Source: Negativicutes bacterium
GTDB taxonomy: Bacteria; Bacillota; Negativicutes; Anaeromusales; Anaeromusaceae
Length of the DNA stretch: 52,338 bases
Direction of reading: 5' to 3'
NCBI GenBank assembly: GCA_009929485.1
Contig: SAAJ01000020.1
Location: 1-52,338 of the forward strand
The notes below the pieces were generated by a model. It saw nothing but the letters and a program-made list of their open reading frames with translations. It did not search any database and had not been told where the DNA came from. The position numbers were made by a program, and so were the translations under genes. Positions 16,657 through 45,364 of this stretch are shown here, piece by piece; position 1 is the first letter of the stretch; each line of letters starts with the position of its first letter.

Positions 16657-17802
16657 ATGGTGATTTTTGCACTTTTTTCCGCCGTTTCGATTGCTGGCGT
16701 TAATATTGCCCTGGGTTTGGCAAGTATATTTGTTCTCTGGGCTTTATTTCGGAAAGAACTATGCTGGAGGTCCCTGGACCTTGTTACAGCAGGAGCTTGC
16801 TTGTTGTTTTTAGGGACCGTGCTGCTCTCCGCTGTGGGCGCGCTGCAGCCCTGGGCTGCGGTAGAGCGGGCGGTGAACTATTTTTTTCGTATGCTGCCCT
16901 TCTTTTTTGTGCCTCTTTTGTGCAAAGAAGCAAAGCAGCTTTGGATCTTGTTGGGGGTAGCCGCCTTTTCCTTGCTGGTGGCAGATAGCTACGCCCTCTG
17001 GCAAGGTCTTCAAGGTAATTTGCGCGCTCCTGCGTTCCATTCCCATCCGATGATGCTGGCCGGTTTTTTGGTGCAATGGATTCCGGTTTTAGCGCTGGTG
17101 ACGGCAGCGGACTGGGGCAAAGAGCTGTCCTTAAAGAATTACTGGCGCTGGAGCTTAGGCGGTCTTTGGCTGCTGTCCTTGGCGGCGTTGGTTGTGAACG
17201 GCACGCGGGGCGCCTGGCTGACGGTCTTGTTTTTACTGTTGGTGTTGGGAGCCACGCTGCTGCGCAAGCATAAAAAAGCGTTGGCTGTCGGTTTCGTAGT
17301 TCTTGTATTGCTTCTGGGCGTGGCCGGCCAGCACCGCGGCTTGCAGGAGCGGGTGCATACGCTGGGGGACGCCTCGTTTCAGTCGAACTCGGAGCGCGTG
17401 CTGATGTGGCAAAGCGCCTGGCAGATGTTTTTGGATCATCCCTTGTTAGGAGTCGGGGCGCAGAATTACGAGTATCAGTACCAAAACCATTATATTTCTC
17501 CCTTGGCTCAGGAACGGGGGCAGATGCATGCCCACAGCAATGTGTTTCAGATGCTGGCAGAGCAGGGCATTGTAGGTTTTGGCGCGTTTGCGCTGCTCTT
17601 TGGCGCGATTTTGCGGCGGGGCTGGCAAGGCATGCGGCGGGGGATGTTTTGGGGGTATTTGCTGGTGGTTGCCACTGTGGGAATTTTGCTGCAGGGATTG
17701 ACGGAATTTAATTTTGGCAACGCCGCGGTCATCCGTCTTTATTGGCTGTTTGCCGGGATTGCGATGGCCGGGCTGAAGCTTTACGGGAAAGATCAGTTTT
17801 AA
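16657..17802 (+). CDS. waaL: O-antigen ligase / polymerase family membrane protein (WaaL-like)
   Basis: Polytopic inner-membrane protein predicted to transfer undecaprenyl-linked O-polysaccharide to the lipid A-core in the periplasm. There are roughly ten to twelve hydrophobic segments. The Wzy_C/WaaL signature 'VVNGTRGAWLTVLF' is present, followed by a large periplasmic loop with 'ERVLMWQSAWQMFLDHPLLGVGAQNY' and 'HAHSNVFQMLAEQGIVGFGAF', where the Arg and His pattern is typical. ATG 16657 is the first standard start, but it falls inside the first conserved hydrophobic stretch. The frame stays open upstream with GNIQKYAYGS, directly after a strong GGAGAGGG site at 16611-16618, so translation may begin at a non-standard codon (ATC 16624 or ATT 16633). 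As a ligase it joins the core (left) to the O-antigen (right). Confidence 0.75.
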   Translation: MVIFALFSAVSIAGVNIALGLASIFVLWALFRKELCWRSLDLVTAGACLLFLGTVLLSAVGALQPWAAVERAVNYFFRMLPFFFVPLLCKEAKQLWILLGVAAFSLLVADSYALWQGLQGNLRAPAFHSHPMMLAGFLVQWIPVLALVTAADWGKELSLKNYWRWSLGGLWLLSLAALVVNGTRGAWLTVLFLLLVLGATLLRKHKKALAVGFVVLVLLLGVAGQHRGLQERVHTLGDASFQSNSERVLMWQSAWQMFLDHPLLGVGAQNYEYQYQNHYISPLAQERGQMHAHSNVFQMLAEQGIVGFGAFALLFGAILRRGWQGMRRGMFWGYLLVVATVGILLQGLTEFNFGNAAVIRLYWLFAGIAMAGLKLYGKDQF

Positions 17803-22434: not shown

Positions 22435-22487
22435 TATAACATTGGGTAAAATTAGGTAAGTAAGTGCGCAAAAGGAGTGTAGGGGAT

Positions 22488-23369
22488 TTGGTAAAGAAAG
22501 GGATTATTCTGGCAGGCGGTTCCGGTACGCGGCTGCATCCGCTGACCCGGGTGGTCAGCAAGCAGCTTATGCCTATCTACGACAAGCCGATGATTTATTA
22601 TCCGTTAAGCACGCTGATGCTGGGCGGCATCCAGGATGTGCTGGTTATTACCACGCCCCAGGATGCGGAGCAGTTTCAAAATTTGCTGCAGGACGGCTCG
22701 CAGTGGGGTCTGAATATTTCTTATGCCCAGCAGCCCAGCCCGGACGGATTGGCCCAGGCATTTGTCATCGGCCGGGATTTTATCGGCAACGACGGCTGCA
22801 GCTTGGTGCTGGGAGATAATATTTTTTACGGCAGCAAGTTGTCGGCATACATGCGCCGCGCCCTCTCGCAGGAAGACGGCGCTACGGTCTTTGCTTACCG
22901 GGTAAAGGACCCCGAACGTTACGGCGTGGTGGAGTTTGACGCCGAAGGACAGGCGCTGAGCATTGAGGAAAAGCCGGCGAAACCCAAGTCGTTTTTTGCG
23001 GTTACAGGTCTGTATTGCTATGACAATCAGGTGGTAAATATGGCCAGGGAGCTGAAACCATCGACGCGGGGGGAGCTGGAGATTACCGACATCAACCGTA
23101 TGTACCTGGAAGCCAAGCAGCTGCGGGTGGAACGGCTGGAGCGGGGCTACGCCTGGCTGGACACGGGAACCCATGAGTCGCTTTTGCAAGCGTCCCATTT
23201 TGTGTATACCGTGGAGCAGCGCCAAGGCCTCAAGGTGTCCTGCCCGGAGGAAATCGCCTATCGCATGGGCTTCATTGACGCCGAGCAGCTGCGCCGTTTG
23301 GCCGATCCGCTGACGAAAAACGGCTACGGGCAATACTTGCTGAATTTGCTGGAAGGAGAACAAGTGTGA
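22488..23369 (+). CDS. rfbA: Glucose-1-phosphate thymidylyltransferase
   Basis: First enzyme of dTDP-L-rhamnose synthesis: dTTP plus glucose-1-phosphate gives dTDP-glucose. The 293-residue length is exactly usual for RmlA. '[16 protein letters not shown]' is the nucleotide-binding loop. '[23 protein letters not shown]', 'LGDNIFYG', '[16 protein letters not shown]' and '[12 protein letters not shown]' are diagnostic. TTG 22488 is preferred over GTG 22464 because AAAGGAG sits ten bases upstream of it and homologues begin at this point. The gene overlaps rfbC by one base. The call is secure. Confidence 0.93.
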
Positions 23370-23824
23370 TGATTCAAGGAGTAGAGGTTAAAAAACTGGT
23401 TCGCCATCCTGACGACCGGGGCTTTTTTATGGAAATTCTGCGGGATGACGATGAACTGCTGAAGCGCTTTGGGCAGGCGTCGTTGTCTAAAAGCTATCCG
23501 GGCGTGATCAAGGCCTTTCATTACCATAAGCGCCAGGATGATATTTGGTTTTTCCCGGTCGGCAACGCCCAGGTGGTGCTGCACGACATGCGGGAAGACT
23601 CGCCGACCAAGGGGGAGACCAACGTGTTCTACTTGGGCGAGGACAATCCCCAGATTGTCGTCATTCCCACCGGCGTAGCCCATGGCTACCGCGTGCTGGG
23701 CAATACGCCGGCGGTGATTGTCTACTTTACGACGGAATCCTATGACCCGAAGAACCCGGACGAATACCGTCTGGATTGGGATGATCCGTCCATCGGCTTT
23801 GACTGGAATACCCAAGCCAGATAG
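23369..23824 (+). CDS. rfbC: dTDP-4-dehydrorhamnose 3,5-epimerase (short form)
   Basis: Cupin-fold RmlC-family epimerase acting on dTDP-4-keto-6-deoxyglucose. The product has 151 residues, about 30 fewer than typical RmlC. 'DDRGFFMEILRDDDELLKRFG' and 'SKSYPGVIKAFHYHK' (catalytic His in place of the usual LRGLHYQ) are visible, as are 'VVIPTGVAHGYRVLG' and 'YDPKNPDEYRLDWDDPSIGFDW'. The middle is shortened relative to the standard form. ATG 23369 overlaps the rfbA stop (TGATG). Its place between rfbA and rfbB makes the pathway assignment likely, though the short RmlC-like subgroup may have altered specificity. Confidence 0.82.
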   Translation: MIQGVEVKKLVRHPDDRGFFMEILRDDDELLKRFGQASLSKSYPGVIKAFHYHKRQDDIWFFPVGNAQVVLHDMREDSPTKGETNVFYLGEDNPQIVVIPTGVAHGYRVLGNTPAVIVYFTTESYDPKNPDEYRLDWDDPSIGFDWNTQAR

Positions 23825-23838
23825 AAAAGGAGTTTGTC

Positions 23839-24861
23839 ATGACGACTGTACTTATCACCGGCGGCGCCGGCTTTATCGGCAGCAATTTTGTCCATCACAT
23901 GCGCAAGGCCCATCCGGAATACCGCCTGCTCAACGTGGACTGCCTGACCTATGCGGGCAATCTGAAAAACCTCCAGGACTTGGAAGGAGATGCGCAGCAT
24001 GTATTCTGTAAGGCAGACATTGCCGACGCGCAAGCCATGGCGGAGATTTTTGCCAAACATAGTGTAGACTATGTAGTGAATTTTGCCGCTGAATCCCATG
24101 TGGACCGCAGTATTGAAAATCCCTTGATTTTTCTGCAGACCAACGTCATGGGCACGCAGGTGCTGCTGGATTTGGCGCGCAAACATAATGTGAAAAAATA
24201 CCTGCAGGTTTCGACCGATGAGGTATACGGCACCTTGGGCGCAACCGGTTATTTCACGGAAGAGACGCCGCTGGCGCCCAACAGCCCCTATTCGGCCAGC
24301 AAGGCAGGGGCGGACTGCATGGTGCGGGCCTATTTCGAGACCTTTGGCCTGCCGGTAAATATTACGCGCTGCTCTAACAACTACGGTCCCTATCATTTTC
24401 CGGAAAAACTCATTCCCCTGATGATTACTAACGCCTTAGAGGATAAGGAGCTGCCTGTGTACGGCGACGGCCTGAACGTGCGCGACTGGCTGCACGTGGC
24501 CGATCACTGCCGCGGCATTGACGCGGTGCTCCACCAGGCCAAAGCGGGGGAAGTCTACAATATTGGCGGGCATAACGAGAAAACCAACCTGGAGATCGTC
24601 AAAACGGTGCTGCGCCTGTTGGGCAAGCCCGAAGAGCGTATTCGCTTTGTGAAGGACCGCTTGGGCCATGACCGGCGCTACGCCATTGATGCCTCCAAGA
24701 TTGAACGCGATCTAGGCTGGCGGCCGCTCTATACCTTTGAACAAGGCATTGAGGAAACCGTTGCCTGGTATTTGGCGCACCGCTTTTGGTGGGAGGAGAT
24801 TAAAAGCGGCGCCTATCAGGATTATTACCGGGTGATGTACCAGGAACGAGGCCAGGCATGA
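23839..24861 (+). CDS. rfbB: dTDP-glucose 4,6-dehydratase
   Basis: NAD-dependent SDR that forms dTDP-4-keto-6-deoxyglucose, the second step to dTDP-rhamnose. The 340-residue protein has 'VLITGGAGFIGSNFVHHM', 'DCLTYAGNLKNL', 'NFAAESHVDRSI', 'STDEVYGTLG', 'PNSPYSASKAGADCMVRAY' (YxxxK) and 'RCSNNYGPYHFPEKLIPLMI', all hallmarks of RmlB. An AAAAGGAG site precedes ATG 23839. The gene overlaps rfbD by four bases (ATGA). The call is secure. Confidence 0.94.
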   Translation: MTTVLITGGAGFIGSNFVHHMRKAHPEYRLLNVDCLTYAGNLKNLQDLEGDAQHVFCKADIADAQAMAEIFAKHSVDYVVNFAAESHVDRSIENPLIFLQTNVMGTQVLLDLARKHNVKKYLQVSTDEVYGTLGATGYFTEETPLAPNSPYSASKAGADCMVRAYFETFGLPVNITRCSNNYGPYHFPEKLIPLMITNALEDKELPVYGDGLNVRDWLHVADHCRGIDAVLHQAKAGEVYNIGGHNEKTNLEIVKTVLRLLGKPEERIRFVKDRLGHDRRYAIDASKIERDLGWRPLYTFEQGIEETVAWYLAHRFWWEEIKSGAYQDYYRVMYQERGQA

Positions 24862-25703
24862 AGATTCTTGTAACCGGAGGCAACGGCCAGCTGGGCCGGG
24901 CCTTTCAGCAGCTGCAGGCGCAGACGGAGCATGAAATCATCGCCATGGACGTGGATTGTTTGGACATTACCAACCAGAAGCAGGTGTTTGCGGTCATGGA
25001 AGAGCTGCGCCCGGACGCGGTGGTTCATGGGGCGGCCTACACCCAGGTGGATTTGGCTGAAAGTCGTGAAGACGACGCTTTTCGCGTCAATGCCGTGGGT
25101 ACGCAGAACATCGCCGCCGCCTGTCTGGCGCATAATGCCAAGCTGGTCTATGTCAGCACCGACTATGTTTTTGACGGCGAAAAAGAGACGCCCTATGTGG
25201 AAACCGACGCCGTTTGTCCGCAAAGCGCCTATGGCCGGACTAAGCTGGCCGGCGAGGAACTGGCGGCACGCATTTGCCCGCGCCTTTTTATTGCCCGTAC
25301 GGCTTGGCTTTACGGGGACGGCAACAATTTTGTCCGCACTATGCGCAAGCTGGCGGCGGAAAAGAACGAGCTCAGCGTAGTGCATGATCAGACAGGGACG
25401 CCGACGTACGCGGTGGATTTGGCGCAGGCCATTTTGCAGCTGCTCCCTACCGCTCACTATGGTACTTACCATATGACCAATAACGGTCAATGCACCTGGT
25501 ACGAATTTGCCTGCGAAATTTTGCGGCAAAGCGGCAGCGCTACGCCGGTGCGTTCGGTAACGACCGCCGAATTTGTGCGTCCCGCCAAGCGGCCGCGCCA
25601 TTCGGTGCTGCGCAACTACATGCTGGAGCAAACCATCGGCGATCCCTTCCGTCCCTGGCAGGAGGCGCTGGCTGAGTATTTGAAGCGAGAGGATAGTTTG
25701 TGA
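24858..25703 (+). CDS. rfbD: dTDP-4-dehydrorhamnose reductase
   Basis: Last step of dTDP-L-rhamnose synthesis: NAD(P)H-dependent reduction of the 4-keto group. The 281-residue protein has 'ILVTGGNGQLGRAFQ', 'AAYTQVDLAE', 'VYVSTDYVFDGEKETPY', 'QSAYGRTKLAGEE' (YxxxK) and 'RTAWLYGDGNNFVRTM', all typical of RmlD. It overlaps rfbB and is itself overlapped four bases by the GTGA of the transporter gene downstream, so rhamnose synthesis and O-antigen export are translationally linked. It is the last GC-rich gene before an abrupt AT-rich shift. Confidence 0.93.
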   Translation: MKILVTGGNGQLGRAFQQLQAQTEHEIIAMDVDCLDITNQKQVFAVMEELRPDAVVHGAAYTQVDLAESREDDAFRVNAVGTQNIAAACLAHNAKLVYVSTDYVFDGEKETPYVETDAVCPQSAYGRTKLAGEELAARICPRLFIARTAWLYGDGNNFVRTMRKLAAEKNELSVVHDQTGTPTYAVDLAQAILQLLPTAHYGTYHMTNNGQCTWYEFACEILRQSGSATPVRSVTTAEFVRPAKRPRHSVLRNYMLEQTIGDPFRPWQEALAEYLKREDSL

Positions 25704-26509
25704 ATTCGTTTCGGAAATTTATAGAATTTTTGTTAGAACTTTTTCGCAGCCGCGAAATGATTTGGGCGCTGACTAAACAAGATCTTGCGAATCGCTACTT
25801 GGGATCGGTTTTTGGATTTTTATGGGTATTTATCCAGCCAGCAGTGACCATCTTGGTTTTTTGGTTTGTATTTGAAGTAGGTTTTAAGTCCATGCCTGTA
25901 GATAATGTACCGTTTATATTATGGCTTATGTGCGGCATGATTCCTTGGTTTTTTTTGTCAGACAGCATTGCGGCTGCGACTCCGGCAGTCATTGAAAACG
26001 CATATCTCGTGAAGAAAGTTGTTTTTCGTGTGAGCATATTGCCCTTGATTAAAATTTTTTCGGCAGTGGTAGTACAATTTTTTTTCATAGTCGTTCTTTT
26101 AGGAATGTTTTCATTTTATTCTATTCCTTTGACGACGTATGCATTGCAATTACTTTATTATTTGTTCTACGCCTTAATTTTAGTGGCGGGCCTTTCTTGG
26201 CTGACGTCTTCATTGATTATCTTTTTAAAAGACGTAGGGCAGTTTGTTGCAATTATGCTGCAGTTTGGTTTTTGGATGACGCCGATTTTTTGGTTTTTGA
26301 AGATGGTACCAGAGCCATACCAGGAGTTGTTGCAGTTAAATCCGGCGTTTTATTTGGTAGAAGGATATCGCAATAGCTTGATTTATCAGCATTGGTTTTG
26401 GGAAGACGGTGGTATGGCGTTGTATTATTGGATGGTTGCAGGAAGTGTTTTTTGTCTGGGTGCGCTGGTATTTCGTCGTTTGCGGCCCCATTTCGCCGAT
26501 GTAATTTAA
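25700..26509 (+). CDS. wzm: O-antigen ABC transporter, permease subunit
   Basis: Inner-membrane permease of 269 residues that, with the ATPase downstream, flips finished undecaprenyl-linked O-polysaccharide to the periplasm. 'IWALTKQDLANRYLGSVFGFLWVFIQPA' is the typical amphipathic start, and about six membrane segments follow. 'FWMTPIFWFLKMVPEPYQELLQLNPAFYLVEGYRN' is the ABC-2 polysaccharide-exporter signature. GTG 25700 overlaps the rfbD stop. Base composition drops sharply here: one 60-base row (25861-25920) has 19 G+C, against 38 in a row of rfbB (24241-24300). This suggests the exporter module was acquired separately. Confidence 0.88.
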   Translation: MNSFRKFIEFLLELFRSREMIWALTKQDLANRYLGSVFGFLWVFIQPAVTILVFWFVFEVGFKSMPVDNVPFILWLMCGMIPWFFLSDSIAAATPAVIENAYLVKKVVFRVSILPLIKIFSAVVVQFFFIVVLLGMFSFYSIPLTTYALQLLYYLFYALILVAGLSWLTSSLIIFLKDVGQFVAIMLQFGFWMTPIFWFLKMVPEPYQELLQLNPAFYLVEGYRNSLIYQHWFWEDGGMALYYWMVAGSVFCLGALVFRRLRPHFADVI

Positions 26510-26536
26510 GTAAGAATGGCAGAAGGAAGTAGAGTC

Positions 26537-27763
26537 ATGGCGGATAACGCAATTCAGATCGAGCATGTTTCCAAAATATATCAAGTATATGACAGTCTGA
26601 AAGATCGTCTAAAGCAGAGTCTATGGTGGGGAAATCACAAATTTTATCGCGAATTTTGGGCCGTACGGGATGTTTCTTTAACCATTCCCAAAGGAGAAAC
26701 AGTCGGGTTAATTGGACGTAATGGTTCTGGCAAGAGCACGTTGCTGCAAATGATTGTAGGAACCTTGACTCCCAGCAGTGGTTCAATACATACTCAAGGG
26801 AGAATTGCGGCGCTCTTGGAGCTTGGCAGTGGTTTTAACCCCGAACTGACAGGCCGTGAAAATGTTCGCTTGCAAGGACTGATTATGGGGCTTTCAGCGC
26901 ATGAAATCCAGAAAAAGCTTCCAGAAATTGAAAGATTTGCGGAAATTGGAGATTTTATTGATCAACCAGTGAAGATGTATTCTTCTGGTATGTTTGTCCG
27001 CTTGGCTTTCGCTTGTGCTGTCAATGTGGATCCGGATATCCTGGTTGTTGATGAGGCATTGGCAGTGGGTGATATGCATTTTCAGTTAAAATGTATCGAT
27101 AAGATGAAGGCATTTAAAAAGCGCGGTAAAACGATTTTATTTGTCAGTCATGATATTTACGCGGTTAAAAATTTTTGCAATCAAGCTATTTGGATGATGG
27201 ATGGTAAAATTCACTTGCGCGGGGATGTCAACCGGGTGGCAGATGAATACCAAACGTATATGCGTTATATTGAAGAGCCGGCAGAGGTTAACGAGGTAGG
27301 TGAAACGCCTGCATTGGCTGGTTTGACTGAAGAGTGTTCTTCGCAAGTTGTGACGATTCATGATGCGTTTTTTTATGATAAATGCGGTAAAATTGTGCAA
27401 AATGTTGCTTATGGAGAACCCTGGAGCGTGATGGTTGATTATACCCTGCATAAGCCGCTGCAAGGGCTTGTAGGCGGGATTGCTGTATATGACTCGAAAA
27501 ATACATATGTTTGCGGTTTGAATACCAAGCTGGATCAGTACGCCTTGCCGGAGCAGCCTGGGAAGTATCAATTATGGCTGGAGTACAAGAACATACAGCT
27601 TCTGCCAGGAACTTATTTTATTGATATTGGCTTTTTTGAAAGCTCCGGTGTTGTAAGTCTGGATTACAAAAGCCGCAGCCACTATATTCGCATAGAGCCG
27701 AATGGAGAATATTTTGCAGAAGGTTTGACTTTTTTAAATCACAAATGGTCTCATCGACCTTAA
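26537..27763 (+). CDS. wzt: O-antigen ABC transporter, ATPase with C-terminal glycan-binding domain
   Basis: ATPase partner of Wzm (408 residues). The N-terminal nucleotide-binding domain has Walker A GRNGSGKST (about 60-68), the Wzt-type signature 'MYSSGMFVRLAFA' and Walker B 'DILVVDEALAVGD', then the switch His in 'LFVSHD'. Residues from about 260 to 408 form an extra beta-rich domain ('IHDAFFYDKCGKIVQNVAYGEPW' onward). In O9a-type systems such a domain recognises the capped end of the O-polysaccharide. ATG 26537 has an AGAAGGAAGT site seven bases away and is preferred to ATG 26516. A methyltransferase gene follows within 30 bases, fitting the cap-recognition model. Confidence 0.88.
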   Translation: MADNAIQIEHVSKIYQVYDSLKDRLKQSLWWGNHKFYREFWAVRDVSLTIPKGETVGLIGRNGSGKSTLLQMIVGTLTPSSGSIHTQGRIAALLELGSGFNPELTGRENVRLQGLIMGLSAHEIQKKLPEIERFAEIGDFIDQPVKMYSSGMFVRLAFACAVNVDPDILVVDEALAVGDMHFQLKCIDKMKAFKKRGKTILFVSHDIYAVKNFCNQAIWMMDGKIHLRGDVNRVADEYQTYMRYIEEPAEVNEVGETPALAGLTEECSSQVVTIHDAFFYDKCGKIVQNVAYGEPWSVMVDYTLHKPLQGLVGGIAVYDSKNTYVCGLNTKLDQYALPEQPGKYQLWLEYKNIQLLPGTYFIDIGFFESSGVVSLDYKSRSHYIRIEPNGEYFAEGLTFLNHKWSHRP

Positions 27764-27791
27764 AAGAATGCGCAGAAAGGTAGGAGTCGCT

Positions 27792-29273
27792 GTGAAATAT
27801 GATTTTGAAATTGATATGGAAAGCCAGAATGCTATGTCCTTAGTATTACAACGAGTCAAGCCGCAAACGCGCATTCTTGAATTTGGCCCGGCAACCGGTT
27901 ATATGACGCGCTATATGAAAGAGATACTTGGCTGCCGCATTTGGGGAGTCGAGATCGATCCGGAAGCGGCAGCGCAGACTGCAGCCTATACGGAGGACAT
28001 CGTTATTGGGGATGCAGATGCCTTGGCTTGGTTGGTGACCTATAAGGGGAAAAAGTTTGACCATATTTTATTTGTAGACGTTTTGGAGCATCTACGAAAC
28101 CCGTTGCTTGTGCTGCAAACAGCGAAAGAGCTGCTTGCTCCAGATGGAACGATACTTATTTCAGTTCCCAATATAGCACATAATGCGGTCATTCTCGAAC
28201 TATTGCAGGGACGCTTTAATTATCAGAAAACCGGCTTGCTGGATGACACGCATATTCATTTTTTTACGCGTGATAGTTTGGCGACTATGGTGCGGCAAAG
28301 CGGTCTAAGCGTGACAGCTTGGGAGACGACTGAGGCCTGCCCGGAGGATACGGAATTTGGGTGTTCTTATGACCAGGTGCCTGAAAATATTGAGTCCCTA
28401 CTGCGTCAGCGGATGGAAGGGCATATCTATCAATGGATTATTGAAGTAAAAGAAACCCCTCGGGAAGAACAACCTAAATTGCTTAATGGGCTGGTGGATG
28501 ACGAACTGCAGCTCTTTTATGGACCAAGCGATACATGGAATGAAGAGGCGAGTTTGCGCAGACCATTAAGTCTGGCGGCAGAAGGAACAGAATATGCCTT
28601 TTCGTTTACATGGACAGGGCATGGCGAGCTGCGCTTGGACCCCGGCAATAAACCGGCTTTTTGTGAACTTTCACAGGCGCGTCTTGTTTGTGAAGATGGC
28701 TCGGTGATTTTTCCTGACATAGCAGCAGCAGGGGATTTAGTAGTATTACAGGCGACGGAAGAGAAGTGGACTTTGTTATCGTTTGGCATAGATCCCCAAA
28801 TTCGGATTTCTACGGAAAAACTTGCTGGGCAACAACAGCAAGTGGAGCTGCGCTTTTCATTGAAAGTGAAACGGAGCGTTAATAAGGGGATGTCGCCGCT
28901 GCTGGCGGATTTTGTCAGCCAATATAAGCCGGATTTGGGGAATATTGGCGTGCTTTTAGCAGCGCTGCGCAAGGATACGGATAAATGGCAAGAAGAGGCA
29001 CATATTTGGCGACACGAAACAGAGCGATTGCAAAAGGACATACAGCGCAAAGATAATGAAATTCAGCGCAAAGACAATGAAATGGATAAGGCGCAAGAAA
29101 TGTTGCAAGATGCACATAGTCAAATGGCGAAGCTTCATGAAAAAATTTACTTGCAGAATGTAGAACTTGCAAAGTTGCAAAACTGGCAAAATAATTTATT
29201 GTTATCCAAAGGTTGGCGTTGGGGCAGCACTCTGCCTTTTTTAGGAAAACGGCTGTTTCCGCAGCCAAAATGA
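27792..29273 (+). CDS. SAM-dependent methyltransferase with C-terminal coiled coil, candidate O-antigen terminator
   Basis: A 493-residue protein in three parts. Residues 1-200 are a class I methyltransferase: 'ILEFGPATGYMTRYM' (SAM loop), 'VEIDPEAA', 'FDHILFVDVLEHLRNP' and 'LISVPNIAHNAVILELLQGRF'. Residues 245-375 look beta-rich and are unassigned. Residues 395-463 are a heptad-like, highly charged coiled coil ('QRKDNEIQRKDNEMDKAQ'), ending with 'LLSKGWRWGSTLPFL', a tail that could bind membrane. GTG 27792 has TAGGAG upstream; ATG 27768 is the alternative. Lying directly after wzt, it resembles WbdD, whose methyltransferase caps the chain and whose coiled coil sets chain length. Unlike WbdD, no kinase domain is recognised. 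The methyltransferase call is secure; the terminator role is inferred. Confidence 0.75.
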   Translation: MKYDFEIDMESQNAMSLVLQRVKPQTRILEFGPATGYMTRYMKEILGCRIWGVEIDPEAAAQTAAYTEDIVIGDADALAWLVTYKGKKFDHILFVDVLEHLRNPLLVLQTAKELLAPDGTILISVPNIAHNAVILELLQGRFNYQKTGLLDDTHIHFFTRDSLATMVRQSGLSVTAWETTEACPEDTEFGCSYDQVPENIESLLRQRMEGHIYQWIIEVKETPREEQPKLLNGLVDDELQLFYGPSDTWNEEASLRRPLSLAAEGTEYAFSFTWTGHGELRLDPGNKPAFCELSQARLVCEDGSVIFPDIAAAGDLVVLQATEEKWTLLSFGIDPQIRISTEKLAGQQQQVELRFSLKVKRSVNKGMSPLLADFVSQYKPDLGNIGVLLAALRKDTDKWQEEAHIWRHETERLQKDIQRKDNEIQRKDNEMDKAQEMLQDAHSQMAKLHEKIYLQNVELAKLQNWQNNLLLSKGWRWGSTLPFLGKRLFPQPK

Positions 29274-29295: not shown

Positions 29296-31950
29296 ATGGG
29301 GGGAAAAATGCGAAACAAGCTATGTAAATATCTTGCCAGGGGAGGAAGCCGCTCTTGGCGGATTCGTAAAGCGGCAGATGTATTGGAGCGTGATGGTTGG
29401 GCGAGGTTGTGTGAAAAAACATGGCAATATTTGCGGATTCGCTGGAATCGCAAGACCTATGAATGGCAGCATGCCGCAGACATTCAGGCGGCTAGGGAGA
29501 GGTTGTTAAAACAAAGCTTTCAAGACGAAGGAGCCGTAAAGGAGGGGATGGTCGGATTTACGATCGTCTCGAAAAACTATACACATTACGCCTTGACGTT
29601 GCGCGAGTCTTTTTTACGTCATCATCCAGAGGCGCAGTTTATTATTTTCTTAATGGATATGTATTTGACCCCCGAAGAAATAGAATTGTTTTCTTCAGTA
29701 ACGGAGAAAGGAGTGCGTATTGTTTGTTTCCATGAAGTAAAAAATGCTATTCCCTGGAAGCGCATCGAGGACATGCTTTTTAAGTATGATATCTTAGAAA
29801 TGAATACGGCTATTAAACCCTTTGTATTGGAATATCTGTGCAATGTGGGTTATGACAAAGTGTTGTATATCGATCCGGATATTTATTTTACAGGGACGGC
29901 GCAGTCCTTGTTGGATGCCTTGGAGGAAGTTGATATTATTTTGACGCCTCATGCATTGGCTCCTTTTAACGATGAAAAAATGCCCGACGATTTGACCATC
30001 TTGAACGCGGGTACATACAATTTGGGCTTTTTAGCGTTGCGTAATACGCCTAATACTATTAATTTATGTAAATGGTGGCAGCAAAAGCTCTTTGACGGCT
30101 GCTTTATGGATTTGCCTAAAGGCATGCATGTCGACCAAAAATGGATGGACTTAGCGCCTTCTTATTTTGACAAAGTAGTAGTGTGGAAACATCCCGGTTA
30201 TAATGCGGCGTATTGGAACTTGCATGAGCGGGTCATTAAAAATGAAGACGAAAAATGGCTGGCTAATGGCTTGCCTTTAGTTTTCTTTCATTTTAGCGGG
30301 TTGCCTTTAGAAGATATAGGGGTTGTATCAAAACACCAAACACGGCATCGGATTCAAAAAGAAAGCGAAGTGTGGCCACTTTTCGCCGAATATCGGGAAG
30401 CGGTATTGAATAATGGCTATCACGTTTTCCGCAAATCCTGCGAATATTACTTTGATTATCTTCCAGGTACGACTCTGCGTATTCCTCAACCAGCACGACG
30501 TTTATACAAGGAGATCTTGCCGAAAATAGCTAATCCTTTTGTTCCTTCACGTACTCATCGGCAAAAGACAGTGGAAGCCTTGAGCCAAGGACAAGAGGGA
30601 TCATCGCAGCTTCCACTGCTGGCACAGGCAATTTGGGAGTGTCGCAAGGATTTGCAAAAAGCGTTTCCTGATCCCGAAGCTAAGCATAAAGAGGAGTTTT
30701 TGGGCTGGTATGCATCGGCTGCGCAGAGAGAGTATGGCATCAACGAGGCGCTGCGTACAGGCCATGCGGATGAGCAAGCGCTGCAACAGGCTATACGACA
30801 ACAGGCAGTAGGCTTAAATTTGATAGGCTATTTTGGTAATTTAATTGGCACAGCGGAAGTTAGCCGTTCTTTTGTCAAGCAGACTTATGGCAGTGGCGTG
30901 CCATTTTCCTTATTTCCCTTAGTTTCGGAAGCGCATGAAAAAATTTCAGTACTGGAATGTGATGAATTTTATCAGTATTATACTGAACAGCCTATTTTTG
31001 GTGCGAATGTATTTTTTGTTAACGCAGGTGAAATGGAAAGTGTGCAGCGGCATTATCCGGATTTGTTTAAAAATCGATGGAATATTGCGGTTTGGTGGTG
31101 GGAGTTTGACGATCATTTCCATTTTGACGAAGCCTTTCAGTATGTAGATGAAGTATTTGTGTTGACTGATTTTGTAAAGCGAGGAATTGAGAAAGCGGCG
31201 CCTGCTGGAAAAAAGGTGACTAAAATCACATATCCTTTTGTGAAAAATTGGGTAATTTCTCAGAGTCCGTCTTTGGTAAAAAAACAGTATGGTGTAGCGG
31301 AAGATGAGTACTTGTTTTTCTTTAATTTCGATTTTTTAAGTAGTTATGAGCGTAAAAATCCGGAAGCTATATTGCGCGCTTTTGCGCAAGCCTTTGATTC
31401 CGCCACTAAAGTAAAATTACTTTTGAAAACGGTTCATTATCATGGCTTTAACGAGCAAGTAAAAAAGCTGGAGAGCTTGCTGGATGCTTTGCATATTCGT
31501 GAACAAGTTATTTTTGTTAATGAGGCTCTTAGTCGAAACGAATTTATGACTTTACTAAATGCTTGCGACAGTTATATTTCGCTTCATCGTTCCGAAGGAT
31601 TAGGTTTGGGGCTATTGGAAGCTATGTATTTGGGAAAACCTGTTATTGGTACGGCGTTTGGCGGCAATATGGATTTTATGACTAAGGAAAATTCTTTTTT
31701 AGTTAGCTATAGAATGGTTCCTTTGCAAGAAGACTTTGGGCCGTATCGTAAAGGCTGGCTGTGGGCTGAAGCGGACATAGAGGAAGCGGCGGCCAAGATG
31801 AAAGCTGTATATGAAAATCCAGAGCAGGCGCAACAAAAAGCAAAGCAGGCTCAATGCGACGTGCGTAGTCGATATAGTCCAGCTGCATTTCAGGCCGATT
31901 TATTTCGCCTGTGGAAAAAAAATAGCAGCATAAAGACGCACAAAAAATGA
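29296..31950 (+). CDS. Two-domain glycosyltransferase (GT8-like plus GT4)
   Basis: An 884-residue protein with two glycosyltransferase modules. Residues about 80-420 resemble GT-A enzymes of the GT8/nucleotide-diphospho-sugar class: 'GFTIVSKNYTHYALTLRESFLRHHP', the DxD-type 'VLYIDPDIYFTG' near 190, and 'ILNAGTYNLGFLALRN'. Residues about 510-880 are a GT4-type GT-B domain: 'GLNLIGYFGNLIGTAEVSRSFV', 'YISLHRSEGLGLGLLEAMYLGKPVIGT' (ExxxxxxxE donor site). It probably adds two different sugars of the O-repeat or an adaptor region. ATG 29296 follows GAGGGA; ATG 29308 is also possible. The DNA is AT-rich like its neighbours. Specificities are unknown. Confidence 0.78.
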   Translation: MGGKMRNKLCKYLARGGSRSWRIRKAADVLERDGWARLCEKTWQYLRIRWNRKTYEWQHAADIQAARERLLKQSFQDEGAVKEGMVGFTIVSKNYTHYALTLRESFLRHHPEAQFIIFLMDMYLTPEEIELFSSVTEKGVRIVCFHEVKNAIPWKRIEDMLFKYDILEMNTAIKPFVLEYLCNVGYDKVLYIDPDIYFTGTAQSLLDALEEVDIILTPHALAPFNDEKMPDDLTILNAGTYNLGFLALRNTPNTINLCKWWQQKLFDGCFMDLPKGMHVDQKWMDLAPSYFDKVVVWKHPGYNAAYWNLHERVIKNEDEKWLANGLPLVFFHFSGLPLEDIGVVSKHQTRHRIQKESEVWPLFAEYREAVLNNGYHVFRKSCEYYFDYLPGTTLRIPQPARRLYKEILPKIANPFVPSRTHRQKTVEALSQGQEGSSQLPLLAQAIWECRKDLQKAFPDPEAKHKEEFLGWYASAAQREYGINEALRTGHADEQALQQAIRQQAVGLNLIGYFGNLIGTAEVSRSFVKQTYGSGVPFSLFPLVSEAHEKISVLECDEFYQYYTEQPIFGANVFFVNAGEMESVQRHYPDLFKNRWNIAVWWWEFDDHFHFDEAFQYVDEVFVLTDFVKRGIEKAAPAGKKVTKITYPFVKNWVISQSPSLVKKQYGVAEDEYLFFFNFDFLSSYERKNPEAILRAFAQAFDSATKVKLLLKTVHYHGFNEQVKKLESLLDALHIREQVIFVNEALSRNEFMTLLNACDSYISLHRSEGLGLGLLEAMYLGKPVIGTAFGGNMDFMTKENSFLVSYRMVPLQEDFGPYRKGWLWAEADIEEAAAKMKAVYENPEQAQQKAKQAQCDVRSRYSPAAFQADLFRLWKKNSSIKTHKK

Positions 31951-32095
31951 ATCAAATCCTGAATAATTAAACGGAGAGCCACAGATTTGTTGTGCGCTTG
32001 TCTAAGAGTGGTCGCTTTTTAAATCGTCGCTTCTTGACAGCGTCCTGATTAATCAGTGGTTTTTCGACTTTTTAAGAGGTGGAAAGAAAGTCGTG

Positions 32096-33796
32096 ATGAA
32101 AAAAGGCAAACTATGTTGGCTGTTGCTGTGTGTTTGGCTTGGGAGCGGAGCGGCATTGTGGTTGCAAGAAAAAAATGCAGGGACAATATGGTTGGAGATG
32201 GAAACTAGTCCAACTGCTAATGTACAGGTGTTTTTTTGGACACAGGAAGGATACCAAGAAAGCAATAGTGTTTTTTTTGCAACGAAGGAAGGTGATGTAC
32301 AACGATACGCTGTTCCCGTGCCGAAGGGAACTGAGTCGTCGATTAGAGTAGATCCGTTGTCTGCTCCTGGTTATTTCGCTATCCGTTCTATTTCTTATCA
32401 AGGTTGCCATAATTCATGGAATTTGTCTGGTGAAGAGTTGACTTCGCATTTGCGCATGGGGTCTCAAATGGAACTAATTGGTATGAAAAGAGGAGCTTGG
32501 CAAGGAAAGTCTCTTGGCAATGATCCTTCTTTTGAAGTGCTTAATTTGCATTTTGACAAAGAATTGGAGCTTGAAGAAAGAATAAAAGTAGCAGCTTGGG
32601 GCGGGATAACGGCCGGTTTGATTTGGATAATTATGGCTTTTGCTTGGAGCGCTTCTCGGTTGTGGAAGCGCGTGTTTTTCTATATGGCGGCCGGAAAACT
32701 TATTTCTTGGAAGAAATGGAGCGGTGTGTATGGCGGCCTTACTCTAGTTGCTTTACTACTAGTAGGATGCGTTAATTTGATTTTAGATCCGTTTGGAGTG
32801 TTCAAAAGTTCTGTTTTTTCGCAACCATTTCAATTAAATGAGCGGTTTCGTAAAGTGGATTTTTTACTGCACAATGTAAAGCCTTTTGATACGTATTTGT
32901 TTGGGTCTTCGCGTATAGGCGTTGTTGACCCGTGCGTGTATGAGAAACTTTTGCCTGGAGCGCACGTTTATAACTTTAGTGTGTCATCTGCTTCTGTAGC
33001 GGATATTAGAAATCAATTGGTGTTTCTTAGCCAACAGTCGTGGCCATTGCGCTTAGTAGTAGTCCAAATTGATTTGGAAAATATGATGGTTTCTAAAAAC
33101 GAAGAATCTGATTATTTGCGCAAGGAGCATCCGTTGCTGAGGCAAGAAGCAGCGTGGAAGTATTATCTTGGATATGCACTAATACAGCCGAAAGAAAATT
33201 GGCAGGGAAAATGGGAAAATAATTATAAACCCATAGAAGATAGAAAATATGACTGGGTTTATGATGTGGAAAAAAGTGGACGTACTTGGCCGCAGGGAAA
33301 ACAGCAGCGAATTGAAAAAGAAGGGGAACAATATTGGAATAAGGAAGTAACGTTGCAAAGAGATGTGCGTACGCGAGCCGTGCGAATTCGCGAAAAGCAA
33401 TGGAAGGAAAATCTACAAGCGTTACAGGAGATTCGGGATCTATGCCGCGACAGAGGAATACGGCTTCTAGTTGCGGTGACTCCGCAGTCGCCGCAATTGA
33501 CAAATTTAGTAGTGACGGAAGACTATTTGCGATTTTTAGAAGACTTGGCAAAAATAACATCTTATTGGAACTTTAGCGGTTATAATTCAGTTACGTTAGA
33601 GCGTCAAAATTATTATGAGTTTAGTCATTATCGCCCGCATGTTGGTGAATGGATGGCTTTGCGCATGCTCGGCGGCAGTCAGGATAAAATACCTGCCGAT
33701 TTTGGAACATGGGTTTCACAAGAAACCTGGCCGCAGCATACCTTGGAAATGCGCCAGCAATTTGAAAGGATGGACCGCCAGCTGTGGGAGAGGTGA
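32096..33796 (+). CDS. SGNH-like membrane protein, AlgJ/DltD-type partner of MBOAT
   Basis: A 566-residue protein with an N-terminal membrane segment (1-24), an extracytoplasmic beta-rich part (about 35-150), two more membrane segments (about 167-190 and 210-232) and a C-terminal SGNH-like domain. That domain has 'YLFGSSRIGVVDP' (Ser near 271) and 'YEFSHYRPHVGEW' (His511), as in DltD/AlgJ-type proteins. Such proteins help an MBOAT acyltransferase pass acyl groups to a glycan outside the membrane. ATG 32096 is preferred (GAGGTGGAAAG upstream); GTG 32093 is in frame. Seven bases separate it from the MBOAT gene. The 145-base gap upstream holds a 12-base palindrome CTGATTAATCAG (32045-32056) but no clear promoter. 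The acceptor is unknown. Confidence 0.7.
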   Translation: MKKGKLCWLLLCVWLGSGAALWLQEKNAGTIWLEMETSPTANVQVFFWTQEGYQESNSVFFATKEGDVQRYAVPVPKGTESSIRVDPLSAPGYFAIRSISYQGCHNSWNLSGEELTSHLRMGSQMELIGMKRGAWQGKSLGNDPSFEVLNLHFDKELELEERIKVAAWGGITAGLIWIIMAFAWSASRLWKRVFFYMAAGKLISWKKWSGVYGGLTLVALLLVGCVNLILDPFGVFKSSVFSQPFQLNERFRKVDFLLHNVKPFDTYLFGSSRIGVVDPCVYEKLLPGAHVYNFSVSSASVADIRNQLVFLSQQSWPLRLVVVQIDLENMMVSKNEESDYLRKEHPLLRQEAAWKYYLGYALIQPKENWQGKWENNYKPIEDRKYDWVYDVEKSGRTWPQGKQQRIEKEGEQYWNKEVTLQRDVRTRAVRIREKQWKENLQALQEIRDLCRDRGIRLLVAVTPQSPQLTNLVVTEDYLRFLEDLAKITSYWNFSGYNSVTLERQNYYEFSHYRPHVGEWMALRMLGGSQDKIPADFGTWVSQETWPQHTLEMRQQFERMDRQLWER

Positions 33797-33802
33797 AAAA
33801 CG

Positions 33803-35257
33803 ATGTTGTTTAATTCTTATGAATTTTTGTTCTTATTTTTACCGGTTGTTTTAATTGGCTTTTTTGCATTAGCCAGGTTTCGCTTATTGCAGGGGGCGTT
33901 GTGGTGGCTGGCGTTAGCTTCTTTGACATTTTACGCATGGTGGGATGTTCGTTATGTTGTATTGTTGTTACTATCCATTGCCGGAAATTATCTGTTGGGG
34001 AGCCGTTTAGAGCAGTTGTCTTCGCAGGAACGACGTCGTCCATGGCTTGGTGCAGGAATTTTTTTAAATTTGTCGTTGCTAGGCTACTATAAGTATGCTG
34101 GCTTTTTTTGGGAAAACTGGAACGCCTGGACGGGGCAAGCATGTGAAGTACCTCAAATTGTACTGCCTCTGGGAATTTCTTTTTTTACATTTACTCAACT
34201 AGCATATCTTATAGATGCATACCGAGGTGAAACAAAAGGGTATTCGGTAGTGCAGTATGTTCTGTTTGTTACTTTTTTCCCACACTTAATTGCAGGGCCC
34301 ATTTTATATCATCGACATATTATCCCGCAATTTACAAGGTTGCGCTTATTTGTCTTTTCTTGGCGTAATTGGTCTCGGGGAATGGTACTGTTCAGTATAG
34401 GCCTGTTTAAGAAAGTTGTAATTGCAGATGCGATGATTCCTTGGGTTGCGCCTGTCTTTGCCTCCCCCCAGCAGGCGACGATGGGGGAAGCATGGGCAGG
34501 GGTATTGGCGTACACCTTTCAGCTTTATTTTGATTTTTCAGGATATTCGGACATGGCCGTAGGCTTGGGATGGCTTATGAATATCCGGTTGCCGATGAAT
34601 TTTAACTCTCCTTATACGTCAACATCTATGGTTCAACTTTGGAATCGCTGGCATATGACGCTGGTAACGTTCTTGAATCAATATGTTTTTTTACCAATCG
34701 GAGGTTTTCGTAAGGGCATGATACGAGGCCTTGGCGGAGTGCTGCTGACCATGCTGGTGGCTGGCTTATGGCATGGGGCAGGTTGGACCTATGTTGTCTG
34801 GGGAATATTGAATGGCTGCTTCTTAATGGTAAACTATCTTTGGCGTCGCTATGGGAGAGAGTTACCGGCGCTTCTTGGCTGGATGGTTACGTTCGGCTGT
34901 ATAATGATATCACTTGTCTTCTTTCGGGCGACCTCGCTGGATATTGCCTGGCAAGTACTGAAATCTATGGCCGCTGTGGATACGCTCTGTTATCCAAGCG
35001 CGTGGGCGCTGTGGTTGCCGCAAGCGCTGCCATATGCCATCCCTTTTGGCGAATGGACAGTAATAAATCATGACACCGAAGCCATGAGCCTGTGGCTGAT
35101 TATGTTGCTTGTTTCTATTCCCTTGCTTCCCAATGTGCATCAAGTGATGCGCGAAGTAAAGCCTAATTATGCTTGGGCTTTGATAATGGCTGTACTTTTT
35201 GTGTATAGCGTATTACAATTAAATCATGTGACTGAATTTCTTTACTTTCAGTTTTGA
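33803..35257 (+). CDS. MBOAT-family O-acyltransferase (AlgI/DltB/PatA-like)
   Basis: Polytopic membrane O-acyltransferase of 484 residues. 'NSYEFLFLFLPVVLIGFF', 'LTFYAWWDVRYVVLLL', 'GISFFTFTQLAYLIDAY', 'FFPHLIAGPILYH', 'QLYFDFSGYSDMAVGLGWLM' and 'LWNRWHMTLVTFLNQYVF' are the ordered AlgI-type motifs. The catalytic His is His324 in 'GLWHGAGW', at the usual place. It would take an acyl group from a carrier on the cytoplasmic side and hand it across the membrane. The neighbours (SGNH-like protein before; acyl carrier protein and KASIII-like enzyme after) suggest the donor is acyl-ACP rather than acetyl-CoA. ATG 33803 follows GGAGAGG. Confidence 0.88.
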   Translation: MLFNSYEFLFLFLPVVLIGFFALARFRLLQGALWWLALASLTFYAWWDVRYVVLLLLSIAGNYLLGSRLEQLSSQERRRPWLGAGIFLNLSLLGYYKYAGFFWENWNAWTGQACEVPQIVLPLGISFFTFTQLAYLIDAYRGETKGYSVVQYVLFVTFFPHLIAGPILYHRHIIPQFTRLRLFVFSWRNWSRGMVLFSIGLFKKVVIADAMIPWVAPVFASPQQATMGEAWAGVLAYTFQLYFDFSGYSDMAVGLGWLMNIRLPMNFNSPYTSTSMVQLWNRWHMTLVTFLNQYVFLPIGGFRKGMIRGLGGVLLTMLVAGLWHGAGWTYVVWGILNGCFLMVNYLWRRYGRELPALLGWMVTFGCIMISLVFFRATSLDIAWQVLKSMAAVDTLCYPSAWALWLPQALPYAIPFGEWTVINHDTEAMSLWLIMLLVSIPLLPNVHQVMREVKPNYAWALIMAVLFVYSVLQLNHVTEFLYFQF

Positions 35258-35290
35258 ATCACATTATTTTGTAGGAATGGAAGTGTGACG

Positions 35291-35536
35291 ATGGAACGCG
35301 CAGAATTGGAAAAAAAAATTATTGAGTTTGCCAAAGAAACGTTTAAAGAGCCGGAAATGACGCTGCAAGCAGTTCTGAATGAAGCCGAAGGGTATGATTC
35401 AATGGCGCATGTGCAATTTTTAGTAGATATTGAAGATTGGTGCGGAGTACAATTGGAGGATAGTGAGGTGCGGCGGGACCACACGGTAGGGGATGTAGTG
35501 GAAATTGTGGAGAAAAAACTTCGGGAGAAAAAATGA
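35291..35536 (+). CDS. Acyl carrier protein
   Basis: An 81-residue acidic helical carrier. Ser37 in 'EGYDSMAHVQFLVDIED' is the phosphopantetheine site (DSM instead of the more common DSL). 'AVLNEAEGYDSM' and the C-terminal 'VGDVVEIVEKKL' match the four-helix ACP fold. Length and motif are also close to DltC-type carriers. ATG 35291 is preferred (GGAATGGAAG upstream); GTG 35285 adds two residues. It overlaps the KASIII-like gene by four bases (ATGA), so carrier and enzyme are probably made in step. It is unlikely to be the housekeeping AcpP because of its context and divergent sequence. Confidence 0.82.
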   Translation: MERAELEKKIIEFAKETFKEPEMTLQAVLNEAEGYDSMAHVQFLVDIEDWCGVQLEDSEVRRDHTVGDVVEIVEKKLREKK

Positions 35537-36489
35537 TGATAGCGGGAATTGCTGGTACGGCAATGTATCTACCAGAGCAGGTAGTGCGAAATGAAGATAT
35601 GGTACAGTTCCCAGCTCGCTTTCGCAATGCTATTGCCGATAAGGCGGGAATCTTTGCAAGAAGGCATATTGCTCCAGGACAAGTGACATCCGATCTGGGA
35701 GTGGAAGCGGTGGAGCGCTTGCTGCAAGCGACAGGAGTCCTGCCGCAACAGGTGGAGGCGTTAATTTGTGCTACATCATCCCCAGATCGCCTGATTCCGG
35801 CGACGGCGACGAGAATCCAAGAAAAGACAAGCTTGGTCAATGCGTTTGCCTTTGATGTCAACTCGGCTTGCAGCGGGGGTGTTTATGCGCTTCGTTTGGC
35901 TGCCGCTTTGGTCGCAGATGGAGTGAAGCACGTGGTGGTGGTGGCGGCGGAAGCATATAGCCAGTTGATGAATCCAAAAGATATTACCACCTATACGTAT
36001 TTTGGGGATGGCGCTGCAGCAGCGCTAGTGACGCCGGACGGCCCATGGAAGCTCAAGGGGTTTCATTTGGGATCAGACGGATCTAAAGCGGACAGCGCGC
36101 AAGCTCCGGCTGGCGGAACGCGTTTACCGGGAGCTTGCGTGACGCGCGTAGAAGATTTTTATCTAACAATGAAGGGTAAGGATATTTTTGATTTTGCTGT
36201 CAAGCGAGGGCCGGAAACCATTGAAGCATTGAAAAGCCGTTTTGGGCGGCCAGACCGCTTTATTTGCCACCAGGCGAATCGCAGTATCATTGCAGAAATT
36301 TCCAAACGCACAGGGGAGCCAATGGAACGGTTTTTTCTCAATTTGAGTGAATATGGTAATACGGCTGGCGCGTCTACTCTGATTGCATTTCATGAAAACT
36401 TGCTGCGGCATCCTGAAGACCAAAGCGTGGTAATGGTCGCTTTTGGTGCCGGTTTGTCCTGGGGCGGAAGCTGGCTGGAAAAAGTATGA
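35533..36489 (+). CDS. Beta-ketoacyl-ACP synthase III family protein (FabH-like)
   Basis: Thiolase-fold enzyme of 318 residues. The Cys-His-Asn triad is intact: Cys113 in 'VNSACSGGVYAL', His246 in 'CHQANRSI' and Asn276 in 'YGNTAGASTL', nearly the E. coli FabH numbering (112/244/274). 'YFGDGAAAALV' and 'VMVAFGAGLSWGGSWL' complete the family pattern. KASIII enzymes condense a short acyl-CoA with malonyl-ACP. Relatives also transfer acyl groups to carriers or form esters. Encoded with a private ACP and a MBOAT, it probably makes or loads the acyl group used by that module. A second ATG (35536) is possible. Substrate unknown. Confidence 0.85.
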   Translation: MMIAGIAGTAMYLPEQVVRNEDMVQFPARFRNAIADKAGIFARRHIAPGQVTSDLGVEAVERLLQATGVLPQQVEALICATSSPDRLIPATATRIQEKTSLVNAFAFDVNSACSGGVYALRLAAALVADGVKHVVVVAAEAYSQLMNPKDITTYTYFGDGAAAALVTPDGPWKLKGFHLGSDGSKADSAQAPAGGTRLPGACVTRVEDFYLTMKGKDIFDFAVKRGPETIEALKSRFGRPDRFICHQANRSIIAEISKRTGEPMERFFLNLSEYGNTAGASTLIAFHENLLRHPEDQSVVMVAFGAGLSWGGSWLEKV

Positions 36490-45361: not shown

Positions 45362-45364
45362 GAC

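Follow-up and report, generated by a model that had tools for sequence, protein, structure and literature searches.

A Dlt-like module in the O-antigen locus of a Negativicutes bacterium, with a condensing enzyme as its probable charger

How might a surface acylation module built along the lines of the Dlt system be charged when the gene for its ligase is replaced by one for a 3-ketoacyl-(acyl carrier protein) synthase III (KASIII)? The question is raised by four adjacent genes of a Negativicutes bacterium (Anaeromusaceae; assembly GCA_009929485.1, contig SAAJ01000020.1), lying in a stretch of 52,338 nucleotides that we refer to as the window. They encode an SGNH-family protein, a membrane-bound O-acyltransferase (MBOAT), an acyl carrier protein (ACP), and a KASIII:

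32093..33796, + strand: SGNH/DltD-like membrane acyltransferase (567 aa; GTG start)
33803..35257, + strand: MBOAT, DltB-like (484 aa)
35285..35536, + strand: dedicated acyl carrier protein (83 aa from GTG, 81 aa from the ATG at 35291)
35533..36489, + strand: KASIII (FabH-like) condensing enzyme (318 aa)

The genes follow one another on a single strand in the order SGNH, MBOAT, carrier, and KASIII, with spacings of 6, 27, and -4 bases (the KASIII start overlaps the carrier stop by 4 bases), and all four are intact; a scan for promoters and terminators returned only background-level signal. A sequence-only reading of this DNA, in which the SGNH open reading frame begins at the alternative ATG at 32096, had described the same four neighbors, and the residues that it singled out are all in place: His324 of the MBOAT, Ser37 of an 81-residue carrier (counted from the ATG at 35291; Ser39, the phosphopantetheine site, when counted from the GTG), and an intact Cys113-His246-Asn276 triad in the KASIII.

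We consider it probable, on balance, that these genes form a Dlt-like O-antigen acylation module charged by the condensing enzyme. In the mechanism that we propose, the KASIII would carry out, on the dedicated holo-carrier, the condensation of a malonyl unit with a starter acyl-CoA, probably acetyl-CoA. The resulting acetoacetyl-carrier may then be reduced to the 3-hydroxybutyryl form by a ketoreductase; such a reductase is encoded within the operon in Prevotellaceae and in one Selenomonadaceae genome, and would presumably be a housekeeping enzyme here. The carrier would deliver the acyl group to the MBOAT on the cytoplasmic side, and the MBOAT, with its His324, would move it through the membrane onto Tyr481 of its own FLYFQF motif, and the SGNH protein would accept it on Ser273 and esterify a rhamnose-type O-polysaccharide exported by Wzm/Wzt. 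The shuttle-tyrosine and SGNH steps are modeled on published work on Dlt and PatAB, and the origin of a 3-hydroxybutyryl group from KASIII, ketoreductase, and ACP on work in Pseudomonas syringae.

The membrane half of this scheme rests on the MBOAT and its SGNH neighbor. The MBOAT, the only one encoded by the genome, matches PF03062 (84.8 bits) and is clearly homologous to the solved DltB (E 4e-27), with DltB TIGR04091 as its best named model (153 bits against a cut-off of 375). Its C-terminus, FLYFQF, is a form of the FXYXXF acyl-shuttle motif containing Tyr481, a feature that the sequence-only reading had left unnamed; the tyrosine of this motif bears the acyl group in PatA, and the DltX form is FLYFGF (PMC12148441, PMC11035591). 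No separate DltX-like small membrane protein was present among the listed open reading frames of the module, the motif being fused to the MBOAT. The SGNH protein is the weakest family call of the four, with a DUF1574 match below cut-off and no match in a profile search against solved structures. It consists of a helix at 4-24, a beta-rich domain at about 30-111, helices near 164-185 and 209-239, and then the SGNH domain, in which alignment with relatives adjoining other MBOATs places the catalytic motifs G-S-S-R (Ser273) and E509-x-x-His512, Glu509 occupying the Asp position of the catalytic set. Among its fold matches, DltD comes first (6pfx; Foldseek E 2.5e-3), which we take only as a hint because the predicted model is of low confidence (predicted local distance difference test score, pLDDT, 57). 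The beta-rich N-terminal domain between transmembrane helices (window 32093-32600) is without counterpart in the relatives; judging from the model, it is perhaps a glycan-binding domain.

With Dlt, the DltA-DltB-DltC-DltD-DltX system of teichoic acid D-alanylation, the module shares a dedicated carrier, the MBOAT catalytic His, a probable SGNH protein, and the FXYXXF motif. It differs in having a KASIII instead of the DltA ligase, a shuttle motif that is part of the MBOAT and not of a separate DltX, and a lipopolysaccharide (LPS) O-antigen locus as its setting instead of teichoic acid. Since the ligase is absent (no DltA in the locus, and none over the model cut-off in the genome), DltX is absent, and the DltB model stays below cut-off, the module would work like Dlt but is not a member of it. 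D-alanylation as its function was rejected. PatA/PatB and AlgI/AlgJ likewise combine an SGNH partner and an envelope glycan target with an MBOAT that has the catalytic His and a fused C-terminal FXYXXF motif. A 2025 study holds, however, that MBOAT/SGNH acylation pathways other than Dlt have no carrier because they use acyl-CoA (PMC12148441), whereas the operon described here contains both a carrier and a KASIII.

Is the carrier–KASIII pair really part of the module? The carrier matches the PP-binding model (23 bits, cut-off 20.8) and reaches 22.9 of 68 bits for the DltC model. The KASIII matches NF006829 (254.7 bits, cut-off 249), and its predicted structure (pLDDT 84) has a thiolase fold with FabH as the top PDB matches (Foldseek E 1.8e-33). 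If the two were accessory fatty-acid synthesis genes that had drifted beside an MBOAT–SGNH pair, one would expect the window KASIII to lie near FabH, and in trees FabH is indeed its nearest neighbor. Against such drift, the genes overlap, the set recurs in distant phyla, the housekeeping FabH is found elsewhere in the genome, in a plsX-fabH fatty-acid operon (L003), and the window carrier is unlike the other carriers of the genome, among which it has no second match at E < 0.01. We regard drift as highly improbable, and an ordinary fatty-acid synthesis role for the carrier and KASIII, the possibility that the sequence-only reading had named as fatal to its proposal, was rejected as unlikely on the grounds of that operon and that carrier search. 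Apart from that of the window, the genome contains three KASIII genes, 34-40% identical to it, the one beside plsX included; another KASIII gene of this genome (L002 191-2493) adjoins an acyl carrier protein gene and one for a GNAT-like protein.

As a minor reaction, FabH enzymes catalyse acetyl-CoA:ACP transacylation, and this side activity lends some plausibility to a second alternative, in which the KASIII acts as a CerJ/ChlB3-like acyltransferase that moves a ready-made acyl group from CoA to the carrier with no condensation, the rest of the pathway being Dlt-like. The lack of a ketoreductase in the window operon would fit such transfer, and in ChlB3 a KSIII fold does serve to load a discrete carrier (PMC9573744). 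CerJ and ChlB3 thus show that this fold can serve ester formation or carrier loading, but these transfer-only enzymes have a Cys-His-Asp triad with a relocated His (PMC9573744), whereas the window enzyme has the Cys-His-Asn triad of FabH (with Asn276), which is invariant throughout the compared set. In addition, the ketoreductase genes of homologous operons imply a beta-keto product there. Taken together, we judge a transfer-only KASIII to be quite unlikely, and condensation remains its predicted function.

If the four genes act together, they should recur together, and the gene set was found in three bacterial phyla (genes in most of the collected loci were assigned by profile hits). Used as a query, the window KASIII gave no match in a first scan of genome contigs or in a plasmid search, and in 300 Negativicutes genomes MBOAT relatives turned up often, mostly unaccompanied by a carrier. 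A large KASIII clade was reached from the KASIII of another neighborhood (L103); its members lie mostly in sets of ACP, short-chain dehydrogenase/reductase (SDR), and KASIII genes beside sugar genes. Scanning 84,980 species genomes with an alignment of this clade yielded 80 loci. Three Treponema metagenome-assembled genomes (L215, L218, L224) have overlapping or abutting ACP-KASIII-MBOAT-SGNH genes with no sugar locus nearby (the L224 contig stops after the MBOAT). Two Prevotellaceae (L204, L226) have ACP-SDR-KASIII-MBOAT followed by an SGNH-like gene, the SDR being the ketoreductase, and Selenomonadaceae have KASIII-ACP-SDR-MBOAT (G267, L135) or KASIII-ACP-MBOAT (G370, L262). In another Selenomonadaceae genome (G268), KASIII-ACP lies about 1.2 kb, or one gene, from the MBOAT in a Wzm/Wzt locus resembling that of the window (Wzm 57%, Wzt 39%, glycosyltransferase 35%). 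The predicted conservation of the cluster is thus borne out, and from this recurrence in other phyla we take the gene set not to be a product of chance. In the trees, the MBOAT-linked KASIIIs of Treponema, Prevotellaceae, Selenomonadaceae, and the window fall on separate branches, which fits repeated coupling of MBOAT and KASIII. Other contexts for KASIII genes also came to light: Flavobacterium loci (L179 5887-10002 and similar ones) contain ACP-KASIII-SDR-KASIII clusters whose two KASIIIs belong to two clades, the second distinct in the tree, and a Deinococcus plasmid (L292 5529-8353) has radical SAM, KASIII, and acyl carrier protein genes in a row with no glycan locus.

The relatives also suggest what the acyl group may be. 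In P. syringae, vioS, vioR, and acp lie in an island for 3-hydroxybutyryl-viosamine, and deletion of vioR, vioA, or vioB abolishes the modified sugar (PMC3927599). The MBOAT-linked KASIIIs of Treponema, Prevotellaceae, and Selenomonadaceae are related to this VioS/VioR/ACP unit (they fall in a VioS-like clade, in a tree that does not include VioS itself), and the Treponema enzyme shares 50% identity with the KASIII encoded in a flagellin locus of Burkholderia glumae, ordered vioA-KASIII-ACP-SDR-acetyltransferase. Because of this kinship with a unit tied to 3-hydroxybutyryl, our best prediction by analogy is a C4 beta-keto or 3-hydroxy acyl group built by condensation. The prediction is weaker for the window, where the KASIII lies outside the VioS-like clade and the operon has no ketoreductase. 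Esters of this kind do occur on surface polymers: rhizobial exopolysaccharide carries O-(3-hydroxybutanoyl) groups (PMC5748678). The VioS/VioR/ACP set with VioB, and orfC/orfD/orfB of P. aeruginosa PAK, share with the window module a KASIII and private ACP (with or without a ketoreductase) that provide a short acyl group for a glycan; there, however, the acceptor is a cytoplasmic nucleotide sugar, acylated on an amino group, whereas here the acyl group is predicted to travel by way of MBOAT and SGNH to an exported polymer. The sequence-only reading knew of no described system of this composition. Since KASIII with ACP and a ketoreductase is an established unit (PMC3927599), that holds only for the coupling to MBOAT–SGNH, which is the new part among otherwise known components. 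This coupling, present as complete operons in Treponema and Prevotellaceae, is described in none of the papers searched, whose coverage is incomplete.

Whether the carrier hands its cargo to the MBOAT can be approached through the DltC docking site, which on DltB is helix HC (PMC11035591). We aligned the corresponding stretch, between the R-W-H-M and W-H-G motifs, in 58 sequences (57 MBOATs of the collected loci plus DltB). Carrier-less MBOATs have P-x-G-G in 37 of 42 cases, with an Asn after it in all 37 that have GG, whereas among the 16 carrier-linked ones, DltB included, 13 lack both GG and Asn and 3 have GG. The association of segment type with carrier linkage is strong (13/3 vs 5/37, Fisher p 1.1e-6, not fully corrected for kinship and with the hypothesis drawn from the same data), and persists after clustering at 60% identity (9/3 vs 3/17, p 0.0017). 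These data bear on a third alternative, that of two unlinked activities: the MBOAT–SGNH pair would O-acetylate the O-antigen from acetyl-CoA, as in PatAB or AlgIJ, and the ACP–KASIII pair would provide acyl-ACP to an acyltransferase acting on sugars in the cytoplasm, in the way that VioS/VioR/ACP work with VioB. The GG of the window MBOAT is what one would then expect, as are the VioS-type KASIII/ACP sets that mostly lie near sugar genes or acyltransferases with no MBOAT, and the GG-type MBOAT of L068, whose adjoining carrier might work with the AAC(3)-like acyltransferase next to it. Yet the Asn that is invariant in the 37 carrier-less GG MBOATs is lost in the window, no separate cytoplasmic sugar N-acyltransferase was recognised there between RmlB and the RTX gene, and the Treponema ACP-KASIII-MBOAT-SGNH operons have no sugar genes around them. 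We therefore regard unlinked activities as a serious but unlikely explanation.

Several observations nevertheless weigh against a carrier-fed, KASIII-charged module, or against extending it from the relatives to the window. The docking segment of the window MBOAT (PIGGFRKG at 298-305, GLGG at 309-312) is of an intermediate type, retaining GG with Gly in place of the Asn, and in the remaining carrier-adjacent GG types, the L068 and L103 MBOATs, the Asn is retained. With a segment that has gone only halfway to the carrier-linked type, the window offers a less secure case than its relatives for a hand-over from carrier to MBOAT, and it is mainly this that holds down our confidence. The window KASIII, moreover, sits on a long branch of its own (1.69) outside the VioS-like clade, a position made uncertain by the length of that branch, and a search of 398 genomes of the phylum turned up nothing more than 43% identical to it. 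In many VioS-like KASIII/ACP sets, an MBOAT is missing from the neighborhood. Finally, L103 (genome G205) was downgraded as a clean four-gene instance, the adjacent MBOAT being of the carrier-less type and the KASIII-ACP genes convergent. A second, carrier-type MBOAT–SGNH pair lies on the same contig, for which reason we think that the L103 KASIII-ACP probably serves that pair.

What, then, would the module acylate? Its upstream neighbors include the following genes, together with heptosyltransferases, a GDP-mannose dehydratase, an epimerase/reductase, and a sugar-phosphate transferase:

16657..17802, + strand: Wzy_C family O-antigen ligase (WaaL-like)
22464..25703, + strand: RmlA, RmlC, RmlB, RmlD, dTDP-L-rhamnose synthesis
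25700..26509, + strand: Wzm, ABC-2 permease of the O-polysaccharide exporter
26516..27763, + strand: Wzt, ATPase with Wzt_C domain
27768..29273, + strand: methyltransferase of the O-polysaccharide locus
29296..31950, + strand: large glycosyltransferase of the O-polysaccharide locus

By their gene content, these surroundings are an LPS O-polysaccharide locus with rhamnose-type sugars, and rhamnose is the likely acceptor. Downstream lie an RTX protein gene and then type I secretion genes. In a same-species genome (G060, L289) the order is RmlB-RmlD-Wzm-Wzt-methyltransferase-epimerase-AT3-RTX-type I secretion, with an OafA-like AT3 acyltransferase (named by eye from sequence) where the window has the module. 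Judging by this gene order, the module takes the place that a variable O-antigen locus reserves for an acyltransferase, an indication that its role is O-antigen acylation. The AT3 enzyme probably does the same job, but as a single membrane protein with acetyl-CoA as donor, no carrier, and no KASIII. The sequence-only reading had placed the acyl group on a surface glycan or protein; an export-side glycan target is supported, and the locus genes and AT3 slot narrow the target, most likely, to the O-antigen. RTX calcium-binding proteins repeatedly adjoin MBOAT genes (window 36933-40166; L135 4618-6699; L080 4201-6948; L085 3870-11410). Between the RTX and secretion genes, the window has an AAA_21 (AbiEii/OLD-like) ATPase gene (40462-41754) that is absent there in G060; in both genomes, two type I secretion ABC transporters, both N-terminally C39-peptidase-like, flank one HlyD gene (window 41811-47494).

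The KASIII, finally, does not appear to be the only enzyme used in this way. The same MBOAT family adjoins carriers with other chargers: FkbH (L074, L075), a fatty-acyl-AMP-ligase-like enzyme (L082), and a DltA-like enzyme (L068). In L074 (8513-13243) and L075 (8587-13270), both on the minus strand, FkbH-domain, MaoC-like, SDR, and carrier genes immediately precede an MBOAT of the carrier type, and an SGNH gene is found upstream; this arrangement predicts that a glyceryl- or related acyl-carrier feeds the MBOAT. In L082 (7161-11763), the fatty-acyl-AMP-ligase-like enzyme, carrier, MBOAT, and SGNH adjoin a PgaC-like glycosyltransferase. In L068 (7404-12605, minus strand), the DltA-like adenylation enzyme, carrier, GG-type MBOAT, and SGNH are part of a NeuB-type sugar locus that also has, next to them, an AAC(3)-like acyltransferase, and the carrier may serve that acyltransferase, not the MBOAT. 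The sequence-only reading had proposed Dlt-like roles, a dedicated carrier, and a KASIII in the ligase's place, all of which are supported here; to this we add that the KASIII is, as far as these gene neighborhoods indicate, one of several interchangeable chargers. We lean, if only slightly, toward a widespread and as yet undescribed class of carrier-fed MBOAT–SGNH systems in which different chargers can take each other's place (FkbH, a fatty-acyl-AMP ligase, a DltA-like ligase, or a KASIII, alone or with a ketoreductase), the docking segment reveals carrier use, surface polysaccharides receive either condensation-built acyl groups such as 3-hydroxybutyryl, or glyceryl-type groups, and the coupling of MBOAT to KASIII arose more than once.

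These operons speak against the absence of a carrier as a general rule for MBOAT/SGNH systems outside Dlt (PMC12148441), and suggest a route by which acyl groups besides acetyl and D-alanine may reach surface sugars. They provide candidate genes for esters of unexplained origin, among them the O-(3-hydroxybutanoyl) groups that rhizobial exopolysaccharide bears (PMC5748678), with the stand-alone four-gene operon of Treponema as a compact test case, and the docking segment would offer a sequence signature from which the donor of many unassigned MBOATs may be predicted.

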